From NCBI RefSeq assembly GCF_001477655.1, contig NZ_CP011266.1, forward strand, positions 1,162,001 through 1,226,000: a DNA stretch of 64,000 nt, given 5' to 3'. Shown here one piece after another: positions 13,074 to 18,773 of the stretch (position 1 is the stretch's first letter; each line of letters opens with the position of its first letter). The stretch comes from Methanobrevibacter millerae (GTDB lineage Archaea > Methanobacteriota > Methanobacteria > Methanobacteriales > Methanobacteriaceae). A program made the position numbers and the translations under genes. The notes beneath the pieces are model-generated. The model did not search any database and was not told where the DNA came from. It saw nothing but the letters and a program-made list of their open reading frames with translations.

Positions 13074-14801
13074 ATGAATAAGAAAATTAATTTAAATTCT
13101 AATTATATTTTTATAATAATAATTTCTTTAGTTTCTCTATTAAGAATTTTTATTGGAAATAATTTAGGACTATGGTTTTTTATTAATTCAATTCAAGATG
13201 ATTTATTGTTGATTGATTATTCTAATTTATTTAATCATTTTATGAATTGGAATATTCTTTCATTAACTAAGGATATTTCTTATTCTTTATTTTTATATGT
13301 TGTAAATATATCAAATATACCATATACTTTTTATTTATCTATCCTATGGATTGTTTGTGGTTTATTGATTGTTTATGCTATTTATAAATTTTTAAATAAA
13401 AATAAATTATTATTGGTTTTATCATTTATTTTCATTGTATTTTTACCTATTGCTTTTGATAGTTCTTCTGGAACAAGAGTATATAGAAATGCTATTATGG
13501 CTCCAATGATTATAATAATGTTATCTATGTTGTTTATATTTATTTTGAATTCTTTAAATGATACTGATAATAAAAGACTTTTAATTTTGTCTATTTTATT
13601 AGGTTTAATTTTTACATTTAATTTTTATATTAAGGAAGATGGTATTTTAACACTTCCTATACTGTTAGTAAGTATTTTCGCATTAATTGTCTTTCATTGT
13701 TATAAATTTAGATCAAAGATTAATTTTAAATATTTATTAATATTAATTATTCCTATACTGATTTTTGGAGTTTCTACATTAGCATACAAGGAAGTTAATA
13801 TGCACTATTTTGGAATAGATGAAATTAATACCCGAACTGATGGTGAACTTGGTGAATTTTGGCAGATTTTGCTTAAAATTGATGATAATAATAAAACTAA
13901 TAAGATTTGGGTTCCTTTTTCTACAATTGAAAAAGCCTGGAATGCTTCACCTACCCTACAATCACGGCCGGATTTATTGGAAAAATGGCTCCATAGTACT
14001 TGGGCGAATGGTAATATGGTTCAAAATCCGATACCTGGTGACCATGTATCATGGAGTTTAAGGGATTCTTTAAATGAAGCGGGTCTATTCAATAATGAAA
14101 AACAAGCTGATGATTTCTTTAAAAAGGTTAATTCTGAATTAAATACTGCTTTTGATAATGGTAGTCTTAATAAATCTGATAAAATATTTATTACTTCAAA
14201 TGCTAATGGAAAATCCATTAATGAAATATTAAATCTAAAACCATATATAAGTTCAGGAATTAAAAGTTGTATATTTTATAAAGATATAACTATTGAAAGT
14301 GTACCTATTTCAGATTCTTCTCAGGTTATTACAAATAATAATACTAAACATACTGAAAAAGTATTAAACGAAAAGTTAGTTACAGCTGAAGATTTAAATA
14401 AACCAACATTTGCTGAAAATTTATCATTAAAGTTAATGAAATTAGATATTAAATTTTATCAGATTATCTCTTATTTGGTTGTAGTATTGTCCTGCATATC
14501 ATTTATTTATTCAGTATTTATTCAATTTAAAAATAATTTTAAAAATAGGAAAATAAATGCTATTATTGGATTTGAATTTTTATTGCTTGCAACATTTTTA
14601 TTGGAAATTTTTGCAATTGGTTGGTTCTGTAGTTGGATTGATATAAATAGTGGACCTATGAAATTTTATACTGTTGCATGTCAGGGAATTTTTGCATTAT
14701 TTGAGGTTATATCAATTTGCGGTGCTATAAGCATATATAAAAAAAATTCAAATAAAAATTTCACTATTAGAGATTATATTTTTAGTATTGGGAAAGATTA
14801 G
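13074..14801 (+). CDS. Multi-spanning membrane protein, possibly GT-C glycosyltransferase-like
   Basis: Protein of 575 aa, more AT-rich than its neighbours. It has about 7-8 membrane spans before residue 240, a large hydrophilic domain (about 245-455), then three to four more spans. An acidic motif after the first span (SIQDDLLLIDYS) resembles the DD/DE loop that GT-C type lipid-linked sugar transferases use for catalysis, but I cannot assign a family. The first three quarters of the extracellular loop include Trp- and Pro-rich segments. No strong ribosome binding site is visible. It is followed by a perfect inverted repeat at 14816 and the frameshifted adhesin, so a role in cell-surface glycosylation is plausible. 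Confidence 0.7.
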   Translation: MNKKINLNSNYIFIIIISLVSLLRIFIGNNLGLWFFINSIQDDLLLIDYSNLFNHFMNWNILSLTKDISYSLFLYVVNISNIPYTFYLSILWIVCGLLIVYAIYKFLNKNKLLLVLSFIFIVFLPIAFDSSSGTRVYRNAIMAPMIIIMLSMLFIFILNSLNDTDNKRLLILSILLGLIFTFNFYIKEDGILTLPILLVSIFALIVFHCYKFRSKINFKYLLILIIPILIFGVSTLAYKEVNMHYFGIDEINTRTDGELGEFWQILLKIDDNNKTNKIWVPFSTIEKAWNASPTLQSRPDLLEKWLHSTWANGNMVQNPIPGDHVSWSLRDSLNEAGLFNNEKQADDFFKKVNSELNTAFDNGSLNKSDKIFITSNANGKSINEILNLKPYISSGIKSCIFYKDITIESVPISDSSQVITNNNTKHTEKVLNEKLVTAEDLNKPTFAENLSLKLMKLDIKFYQIISYLVVVLSCISFIYSVFIQFKNNFKNRKINAIIGFEFLLLATFLLEIFAIGWFCSWIDINSGPMKFYTVACQGIFALFEVISICGAISIYKKNSNKNFTIRDYIFSIGKD

Positions 14802-14838: not shown

Positions 14839-14971
14839 TTAAATTATAATTTGCTATATGTTTTTTTCCCTAAAATAAAAAAATTAATTAACACATGTTA
14901 AGTATTATTTTTATATAATATAATAATCATATTATTAATTATACTATTTAAATATAGTTGGGAGAGATAAC

Positions 14972-17900
14972 ATGAAAAAAATATTTTTTTAGTATGCATT
15001 ATTTTTTCTATTATTTTATCCATGTCATTTGTTAGTGCAATGGATGTTAATGAAACACAAAATAATGCTGTGTTAAAAGATAATGTGAATATTATTGATG
15101 TTGGTTCTGGTGATTTTTCACAATTATCTCATTATGTGAAGAGTGATAATTATATTATATTAAATGGGGATATTACACGATCTCCAAGTAATAGTGACTT
15201 ATCAATTGAAAAAAATGTGACAATTGATGGAAATGGTCATACAATTAATGCAAATAATTTGGGGCGAATTTTTAGTATTTATGGAGGAGAATTGACATTA
15301 AAAAATTTAAAGTTGAAAAATGGAAATTTAGATGGTCCTGGAGGAGCAATTTTAAATTATCATGGTAAATTAACTATTATGGATTGTACTTTTGAAAATA
15401 ATCGTGCTACACAGGGTGGTGCAATTTCTTGTGATGTTGGAAAAACTACTATTTTGGGTACAAATGTATTTTCCAATAATCAGGCAACTATTGATGCAGG
15501 AGCAATTTATAATTATTACTCTGAATTAACTATGTCTGGAAAAAATACTTTTAATAGTAATCAAGCTTTAATTCATAATGAAGGTAAAGGTGGGGCTATT
15601 TTAAATGTATTTGGAGGATCTAAAATGACCATCACAGGAGAGACTATTTTTAATAATAACCAAGCAACATTTGATGGTGGAGCTATTTTTAACCATCAAG
15701 CTACACTTTCTATGGATGGTGTAAATTCTTTCATTAATAATAAATTAACAGGTGGTGAAGGTAAAGGTGGTGCAATTAATAATGAAAATGGTACTTTTAC
15801 TTTATCCGGAGTTAATACATTCAAATCAAACTCTGCTGTTAGGGGTGGAGCAATTGATAGTAGTTTTGATTCAATCACTACAATTTCTGGAAAAAATGAA
15901 TTTATAAACAATAAAGTTACTGGTATGGGTGGTGCAATTTCCAATCATTTGGTAAAAAGATTTAATTTATATGGTGAGAATACGTTTGAATCAAATTCCG
16001 CTAATAATATTGCTGGAGTATTATATATATTCCATGGTACATCAGATATTAATTCTAAAAATGCATTTAATTCCAACACTGCATCAAATGCTGGGGGAGC
16101 AATATATTTAGATTCAGCATCTATGACTATTAAAGGATTTAATAATTTCAAATCAAATAGTGCACCTTTAGGTGGTGCATTGCTTTTGAAAGATTCAACC
16201 CGTGTTGATATTTTAGGTGAAAATGTATTTGATTCAAATACCGCTTCAAGTACTGGTGGAGCTATTAGGGCTAATAATGTAAAAGAGTTGATTTTAGGAA
16301 ATCATAACTATTTTTCAAACAATAAGGCTTCCAGCAGTGGTGGAGCTATTTATATGCAGAATTCAGTTTTAAATACTCAAGGTGCTTTGTATGAGAGTAA
16401 TTCTGCTCAATATGGTGGAGCAATATTTTTAGAAAATACTGCATTTGCAGGTAACTACAATATTTTCAAAAATAATTATGCTTCAAAAACAGGTTCTGAT
16501 ATTGAATCATATCAAAGTTCTATAAATAGTTTAGAGTATAATTACTGGAATTCTCAAAATAAGGTTTCACAGAATAATATCCATAATTATGATGTATCAA
16601 GGATTAGGAATTGGGTTGTGATTGACTTCACTATTCCGTCTGAAATTAAACAGAATACTAATACTGAAGTTGTTAGATTCAAAACTAACAGTTTCACTAA
16701 TTTAGGTGGTGAAATGCCTATGTATGGTGTTTCTGCAAGTCCAAACTTCAATCCTTCAAATGTTATTATTAAAAATAATGTTGGAACCAGTCAGTATACT
16801 GGTCCTGCGGGTCCTGTTACTGTCACAGTATCCAGTTCTAATTTCGGAGGATCAAAAAGTGTCAATGTTGTTGAAGGTAAGGTTAAAACCCAATTGAAAG
16901 GAAATAATGTTGTTTTAAAAGACCCTTCCCAAAGTGCAAATTATCAAGTTACTTTAAGTGATGTAAACGGCAATGTATTGTCCGGAAAAACAGTTACTAT
17001 TACTGCGGACGGTAAAAAATATACAAAAACAACTGATGCTAAAGGAATAGTTTCCTTGACACTTTCAGGTTTAGCCAACGGATATCATAAGGTTGAATCA
17101 TCATATGCCGGAGAGAATAAATATTATGATTCCAGCACAACCAATGGTATAATATGTGCATTCAATAATGAGTCAACTACACAATTACAGACAAGAGATA
17201 TTGAAATGTATTTCAAGGATGGTACCAGATATGGTGTTAAATTAATGGACTCTGCTGGTAAAGCATTAGCCAATAAAGAAATTTATATATTAATTTCCGG
17301 AATTATTTACACAAGAACAACCAATGAAAATGGTGAGGCATCCATTGCTATTAACTTGAATTCAGGAACTCATGATGTAATGGCATGTTTCCCTGGAGAT
17401 GCAAGCAATGAATTTGCATTCGTTGAAAATACAATTATCGTCAAGCCAACCATTTCAGGTAATGACATTACCAAACATTATAAGAATGGAACTCAATATT
17501 ATGCTAAATTTGTTGGAAAAGACGGCAAAGCCTTAACAAATACCAAAATCAAATATAACATCAATGGTGTATTCTATGAAAGGACCACTGATGCCAACGG
17601 TTATGCTAAAATGAACATCAACCTTATTCCTGGAAGATATGTCATTACCGCAACCAACCCTGTTAATGGAGAAATGTATTCTAATATAGTTACCGTTCTA
17701 ACAATATTTGAAGGTAAGGATGTAGTTAAATACTACAGAAATGACACCCAATATATTGTGAAGATCCTCGGTGATGACGGTAAACCTAAATCCGGTGTAA
17801 CAGTTTCATTTAACATTAATGGTGTATTCTATAATAGGGTTACCAATGAATCAGGTTATGCAAAGATGAACTTGAACTTAATTCCTGGAGATTATATTAT

Positions 17901-18201
17901 TACTGCTGAATATAACGGTTTGAGATATTCAAATAATATCAAGATATTGCCTGTTCTTTCTGCACGTGATGTTACAATGTCATATAGGGATGGAACTAAG
18001 TTTGAAGTAAAAGTACTTGATGGTCAGGGTAATGCATATCCAAACCAAAACATTACATTTAATATTAATGGTGTATTCTATCAAAAAGTAACTGATGATG
18101 ACGGATACGCTAGGTTAAACATTAATCTAATGCCTGGTGAATATATCATTACATCTGAATACGGTACTGCCAGAATAGCTAATAAAATTAATATCAGATA
18201 A
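14972..18201 (+). pseudogene. Adhesin-like protein (beta-helix plus Ig repeats), frameshifted in the signal peptide
   Basis: Large surface protein whose body is one open frame from ATG 15022 (1059 aa). The true start is probably ATG 14972, preceded by GGGAGAG, but it reads M-K-K-I-F-F-stop. Adding one T to the 7-T run at 14984-14990 restores a full signal peptide ending FVSA in frame with the body. The protein then has a right-handed beta-helix of about 20 turns (residues ~60-500, repeated GGAI motifs) and five Ig-like domains (~620-1059), the last three sharing FNINGVFY and GYAKMN-type motifs. No C-terminal membrane anchor is present. As sequenced, the product from ATG 15022 would lack most of its export signal. 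Slippage, phase variation or sequencing error are all possible. Confidence 0.8.
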
Positions 18202-18223
18202 TGAGGATAATATTTTCCTCATT
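18200..18223. terminator. Hairpin terminator between convergent genes
   Basis: AATGAGGA (18200-18207) pairs with TCCTCATT (18216-18223), followed on the plus strand by a TAATTTTTTT tract. It serves the adhesin end and slightly overlaps the end of the minus-strand gene. Confidence 0.6.
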
Positions 18224-18773
18224 TAATTTTTTTATATTTTATTTTTTTGTTTTCTCTTTTTCTTGAATCCATATCCACCAAATCATATATTAATTTATTT
18301 TTAAGCAAAAATCTCCATACTTTGTATGTTTGATTAATGAATTCTTCATTTAAAGGAATATTGTCCTTGATTAGTGGACATTCATATGGATACTCGCTAT
18401 CGTCAAAGATAAGATAAAAGTGATTGTCAGTGTCTATATGCGGTATCAATGGAAATGTTCTGCACTGAATCGGTCTTATTTCGCGCTGGCAGTTAGGCGG
18501 ATTAAGACATTTTACAGTATATACTCCGTCTTTCCAGGAATATGGATAGTCAATTTCTTTAATGCTGAAATGTTTTAGTTCAAATGATTCGCTGTTTTCA
18601 TAGAGCAGTTCTTCACCTGGAAGCAGATATATTAGCAAATCATCGTTAGAATAGTCTTCATCATCATATAGGCAGCAGATTTCACCGCAGAGTTTTCCGC
18701 AGTCATAGTCAACAGGCGAAACCCTATTCAGCACTTTATGAATTTTTTCAATCTGTTCTTTTGAAATTTCCAT
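18219..18773 (-). CDS. Cysteine-rich protein, YkgJ/CxxCxxCC-like
   Basis: Cytoplasmic protein of 184 aa. An N-terminal CGKLCGEICC cluster and a later CLNPPNCQREIRPIQCRTFP segment resemble the YkgJ-type family thought to bind zinc or an iron-sulfur cluster; the CRxFP core is the most typical part. A further Cys lies in YPYECPL. No catalytic role is established for this family. It is transcribed toward the adhesin, away from the upstream fragment, and seems monocistronic. The C terminus is strongly basic (KRENKKIKYKK). Confidence 0.72.
   Translation of the reverse strand: MEISKEQIEKIHKVLNRVSPVDYDCGKLCGEICCLYDDEDYSNDDLLIYLLPGEELLYENSESFELKHFSIKEIDYPYSWKDGVYTVKCLNPPNCQREIRPIQCRTFPLIPHIDTDNHFYLIFDDSEYPYECPLIKDNIPLNEEFINQTYKVWRFLLKNKLIYDLVDMDSRKRENKKIKYKKIK

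Follow-up and report, generated by a model that had tools for sequence, protein, structure and literature searches.

A Methanobrevibacter millerae SM9 adhesin gene deposited with its start codon out of frame at a short A/T run

The adhesin locus and its start region

Methanobrevibacter millerae SM9 is a sheep-rumen isolate, listed as a non-pathogen, with a published chromosome, CP011266, of 2,543,538 bases (PMC4987999). The DNA analysed here, referred to as the window, is a 64-kb stretch that spans positions 1162001-1226000 of the single 2,543,538-base SM9 contig; positions are those of the window for the features of the locus, and those of the contig for places elsewhere in SM9. An Rfam search of the whole window returned no match. 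The features of the locus are collected in Table 1. Its main element is a large adhesin-like gene, whose body matches the Pfam families Chlam_PMP (7e-23), Big_1 (2e-21) and Big_3_5 (5e-16); thus, it has the extracellular beta-helix/PMP and Ig-like repeats that are also found in many SM9 paralogues. The adhesin family has roughly 75 genes in SM9, of which one, the gene at ATG 14972, is frameshifted as deposited, at a homopolymer at its start. This gene shares with the Methanobrevibacter adhesin-like proteins (PMC4987999) a signal peptide, the beta-helix/PMP and Ig-like repeats, membership in a large family and the existence of positional orthologues; it differs from them in that its signal peptide is out of the frame of the start codon.

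The gene immediately upstream, which encodes a multi-span membrane protein, has a DNA relative with 65% identity over ~1 kb at SM9 2508910-2509926, near other adhesin genes. Multi-span membrane proteins found beside adhesins, such as these two, are possibly adhesin-linked glycosyltransferases. A different membrane protein, of 700 aa, occupies the same spot in the related genomes G003 and G004.

Table 1. Positions of the features of the adhesin locus and of candidate AUA/AUU-start adhesins.
Feature	Position	Strand	Remarks and basis
575-aa multi-membrane-span protein, no Pfam match	13074-14801	+	upstream of the adhesin gene
Shine-Dalgarno-like GGGAGAG	14960-14966	+	5 nt 5' of ATG 14972; sequence read
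Signal-peptide core in the body frame, no ATG/GTG/TTG	14971-15021	+	sequence read
Six-codon ORF	14972-14992	+	apparent translated product as deposited; sequence read
A7 run	14975-14981	+	alternative length-change site; same A7 in one G004 orthologue; sequence and comparison
T7 run	14984-14990	+	most likely length-change site; T5 in orthologues; sequence and comparison
Adhesin-like body, 1059 aa, stop-free	15022-18201	+	N-terminal Chlam_PMP/beta-helix, C-terminal Big_1/Big_3_5 Ig-like repeats
Conserved 184-aa protein	18219-18773	-	synteny anchor
Candidate AUA/AUU-start adhesin	1636-2523 (SM9 1163636)	+	
Candidate AUA/AUU-start adhesins	SM9 95661, 1483088, 1531083, 2068671, 2318092, 2340078, 2342436, 2514936		
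Candidate AUA/AUU-start adhesins outside SM9	L144, L146, L147, L149		

Read directly from the sequence, ATG 14972 is followed by the codons AAA, AAA, ATA, TTT and TTT and by the stop codon TAG at 14990-14992. The frame of the body begins past a TAA at 14968-14970 and is open to 18201. Between 14971 and 15022 it contains no ATG, GTG or TTG, and its earliest ATG, at 15022, would give the protein of 1059 aa. The body frame 5' of 15022 reads ...NIFLVCIIFSIILS, continued by MSFVSA-MDVNET, which corresponds to the core of a signal peptide, with an end resembling A-x-A, that is broken at its start alone. The original prediction had described an adhesin, a start codon with a ribosome-binding site that opens only six codons, and a body whose lack of other lesions argued against long-term decay. 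These descriptions are borne out by the GGGAGAG sequence and the TAG stop codon, by the Chlam_PMP repeats and Big_1 Ig-like domains, and by the 1059 stop-free codons together with the intact orthologues described below. It had further proposed that the addition of one T joins the start to the 1059-aa body and to the export signal; the addition does join them, but it is not the sole repair. A one-base change in the A7 run is equally possible as one in the T7 run, and shortening the T run by two bases likewise brings the body into frame. Since the orthologues keep the residues K-K-I-F at this place, one of them with the same A7, the T run is favoured as the site of the lesion. Based on the total length of the signal peptide (23 aa to the A-x-A end), T8 is favoured as the in-frame form, though the relatives have T5. 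In the orthologues the signal peptide is in frame with the body, as is characteristic of the family, and in the SM9 copy as deposited it is not; judged by its reading frames, the SM9 gene is a frameshifted copy of an adhesin family gene and not an intact member.

Using a mechanical description of this start region, i.e., a Shine-Dalgarno-like site, an ATG, a short peptide, an A/T run and a body of at least 150 aa in another frame without a start of its own, we scanned 1.06 Mb of SM9 DNA, made up of adhesin-rich and syntenic stretches. The signature was found at six places. Only two of these make biological sense, namely the adhesin gene at 14972 and a cas1 copy at 1253312 with its lesion outside any run, which indicates that the adhesin case is not due to chance.

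Orthologues and age of the lesion

A DNA search for an orthologue among 67 genomes of the genus gave no close match; orthologues were therefore sought by other routes, i.e., via synteny, with the gene at 18219-18773 as the anchor, and via protein searches. One genome per species was compared, and the closest orthologues are only ~60% identical. Beside the anchor, the M. millerae MAG SIG13 (G004) carries two adhesins in tandem, with 61% and 57% identity to the SM9 protein, and G003 carries one with 58%; all of them have intact signal peptides, as does a further homologue, L140, which is 53% identical. Between the same anchors, both the adhesin gene and the upstream membrane-protein gene are missing from the genomes G035 and G015. 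The intact signal peptides in the positional orthologues of two relatives and in the L140 homologue indicate that the SM9 start is broken, and not that the gene has been misread. On the strength of these comparisons, the SM9 gene is a real adhesin gene at a variable locus, broken as deposited.

Pairwise dN/dS values between the SM9 body and the two G004 copies are about 0.23-0.26; these values are approximate and mostly reflect the time before the lesion, as dS is 1.1-1.4 or higher, near or beyond saturation. The stop-free body of 1059 codons and the low dN/dS point to a lesion that is either recent or not real. Long-term decay of the SM9 adhesin is unlikely on these grounds, and a recent or absent lesion fits the comparison.

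Sequencing error, slippage and the off state

The SM9 reads were produced with 454 GS FLX Titanium alone, at 213x, and assembled with Newbler 2.0, with merely 169 Sanger reactions added in finishing for gap closure and base conflicts (PMC4987999). The consensus errors of 454 are mostly indels in A/T homopolymers, with low-GC genomes the worst affected (PMC3277595), and a benchmark reported 1 error per 8.4 kb at 20x (PMC2625371). The locus resembles these errors in that the SM9 genome is low in GC and was read by 454 only, and the lesion amounts to a single base in the length of an A/T run; it may therefore not exist, which counts against a real off allele: the calling of flow signals could have shortened an in-frame run by one base in the consensus of an ordinary and intact adhesin gene. 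Additionally, the adhesin gene at 14972 is the only credible homopolymer frameshift in the 1.06 Mb of SM9 DNA. Nevertheless, neither the surrounding coding DNA nor the run-length spectrum shows the raised error rate that would accompany such miscalls. Across 88 kb of coding DNA with verified frames (142 of the 148 orthologue comparisons being covered at least 90% by a single alignment), there are zero frameshifts in conserved genes, where the benchmark rate would predict ~10 errors, and 53 A/T 7-mers and two 8-mers are correct. The run-length spectrum is not truncated either, with an n8/n7 ratio of 0.24-0.26 in SM9 and 0.26 in G004, and 8-mers in non-adhesin coding DNA amount to 9.2 per 100 kb in SM9 vs 9.0 and 8.3 per 100 kb. 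A scan for frameshifts at 7-mers with at least 30 codons upstream gave no convincing case. As only two 8-mers were verified, the comparison has little power for the exact event at issue, and for this reason we regard a sequencing artefact as unlikely but still as an explanation of appreciable weight.

Other places considered as homopolymer miscalls or fusions were set aside. At 1253312 (-) (L075), the Cas1-like gene has its frameshift ~22 codons past the start, outside any run. The match of the fusion scan at 1209291 appears spurious, as a plus-strand gene overlaps its upstream piece. At 1235836 (-) (L074), the frameshift candidate is not a miscalled intact gene but a fragment resembling the end of a cobyric acid synthase, beside an integrase-like ORF. 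This fragment is itself frameshifted at an A6 run and looks like an insertion remnant.

The original prediction had proposed either a contingency locus or transcriptional slippage at the run. In a contingency locus, frequent and reversible slippage would yield on and off cells in a population and the run would be maintained by selection. The locus does have slip-prone simple repeats at its 5' end (A7 and T7, codons 2-7), where a change of phase abolishes the product: a slip in codons 5-7 leaves a six-residue peptide, the body is intact and the product is a surface protein. A close parallel is inlA of Listeria monocytogenes (PMC2831843), likewise a surface-protein gene in which a one-base change in an early A/T run of 6-7 nt stops translation after a few residues while the body stays intact; its 5' poly(A) shows frequent 6A to 7A reversion, and 5' runs of 6-7 nt in this gene can switch ~1000-fold faster than point mutations (PMC2831843). 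Similar short A/T runs in the 5' coding region, with one-base on/off changes, are those of Campylobacter coli flhA, a poly(T), and Bacillus subtilis swrA, a poly(A), according to work cited in PMC2831843, which also attributes the phase variation of Campylobacter flhA to deletion in the 5' poly(T). However, in inlA several strains are frameshifted and reversion was measured (PMC2831843), whereas the SM9 case consists of one 454 genome from another domain of life; switching of flhA and swrA was shown experimentally, as cited in PMC2831843, whereas the SM9 locus is known from sequence alone.

The run statistics do not support the interpretation as a contingency locus. Among the 76 signal regions of SM9 adhesins, the longest A/T run has 7 bases in 16, with 17.2 expected when synonymous codons are drawn from pooled usage; thus, 7-mers are not in excess, and the T7 run is not longer than expected. 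Runs of at least 8 bases were observed in none of the same 76 regions, where about 5-5.8 were expected. Adhesin-like coding DNA has a single A/T run of at least 8 bases in 370 kb, vs 48 in 501 kb of other SM9 coding DNA, which means that adhesins avoid long A/T runs and do not accumulate them. The run is not conserved in the orthologues, which at this site have T5 or shorter. No further run out of phase in a signal peptide was found among the SM9 adhesin-like ORFs surveyed or in the G003 and G004 stretches, viral contigs scanned for exact matches to the run and its flanking sequence contained none, and the literature searched on Methanobrevibacter adhesins contained no link to phase variation or frameshift. 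Since inlA tracts of only 6-7 bases slip usefully, these statistics argue against a maintained contingency locus without being decisive, and we consider it improbable. The broader claim of an archaeal phase-variable adhesin, with slippage of a 5' A/T run in the signal peptide producing on and off cells in rumen methanogen populations, appears no less doubtful.

Recoding of the transcript would be another way to produce some full-length adhesin from the deposited sequence, either by slippage of RNA polymerase on A7 or T7 or by a -1 ribosomal frameshift on UUU UUU before the UAG. Both runs are in the register where a -1 slip reaches the body frame, and the RNA of the start region is predicted to fold somewhat better than shuffled sequences (z -2.2, with 6 of 200 shuffles equal or better). 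However, the predicted stem sequesters the Shine-Dalgarno sequence and the start codon and does not lie at a frameshift-stimulating distance, and the lack of conservation of the run counts against recoding as well. Additionally, seven bases are short for strong polymerase slippage. We consider recoding very unlikely.

The explanation that we favour, with a probability slightly above even, is that of an ordinary adhesin gene whose start went out of frame through a recent change in the length of an A/T run, most likely the T7, a change that is in principle reversible. The frame of the start would have been shifted by ordinary replication slippage in this short run, which lies in the region encoding the signal peptide. 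The gene belongs to a family of ~75 and would be dispensable, and growth in pure culture perhaps relaxed the selection acting on it. Provided that cells carry the allele, translation from ATG 14972 would end after the six-residue peptide read in the sequence, and we infer that the exported adhesin would be absent. As the body carries no lesion and runs of such length can slip back, reversion may occur and the off state would be reversible in principle, like that of the inlA 5' poly(A); as in inactivation of the inlA type, the frame is lost at a short A/T run near the 5' end and the body downstream is intact. None of our data indicate that the run was shaped or maintained as a switch by selection.

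If real, the lesion would mean that an off allele of a surface adhesin occurs naturally in a dominant clade of rumen methanogens. For vaccines or inhibitors meant to mitigate methane, a surface protein that is off or easily lost in culture would not be a good choice of target. Were switching proven, phase variation by simple repeats would be known for archaeal adhesins as well; should the lesion be a 454 error, the annotation as deposited needs correcting.

Candidate AUA/AUU starts and other broken adhesin genes

Approximately nine SM9 adhesins have a clear signal peptide that is not preceded by an in-frame ATG, GTG or TTG, and an ATA or ATT located 4-9 nt past a strong Shine-Dalgarno sequence (Table 1). 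Candidate broken starts at 95661, 1163618, 1483136, 1531118, 2068659, 2318220, 2340123 and 2342436 were rejected as such, because they share the strong Shine-Dalgarno sequence and the ATA or ATT and are likelier non-AUG starts. In the 67 genomes of the genus, GGAGGTGAAAAYATA has nine occurrences, and seven of the nine, in five species, open adhesin-like frames that bear a signal peptide; the cases outside SM9 were found with a pattern already containing ATA and therefore show recurrence, not frequency. GGAGGTGAAAAYATG is absent from SM9. AUA/AUU initiation looks like a feature specific to adhesins, as far as these sequences indicate, and perhaps it throttles very large surface proteins.

These candidates raise an analogous reading for the gene at 14972, in which translation of the body would begin at a non-AUG codon of the body frame, as seems to happen in several other SM9 adhesins; this frame does have an ATT, at 14983. 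This ATT lies 16 nt past GGGAGAG, vs 4-9 nt in the other cases, and ATG 14972 is already at the right spacing from the same Shine-Dalgarno-like sequence. A start at 14983 would, moreover, drop the basic n-region that the orthologues keep, and we consider such a start extremely unlikely for this gene.

A second T-run frameshift had been considered at 1111501 (+) (L068), but comparison with the G004 orthologue shows instead a deletion of ~14 bp that removes the start codon. The body of this adhesin-like gene is still open, and its G004 orthologue is intact and 73.5% identical. Decayed adhesin genes are also present in SM9: that at 626196 (+) contains several stops, and in that at 383662 (+) the signal peptide and the body occupy adjacent frames and a TGA follows later.
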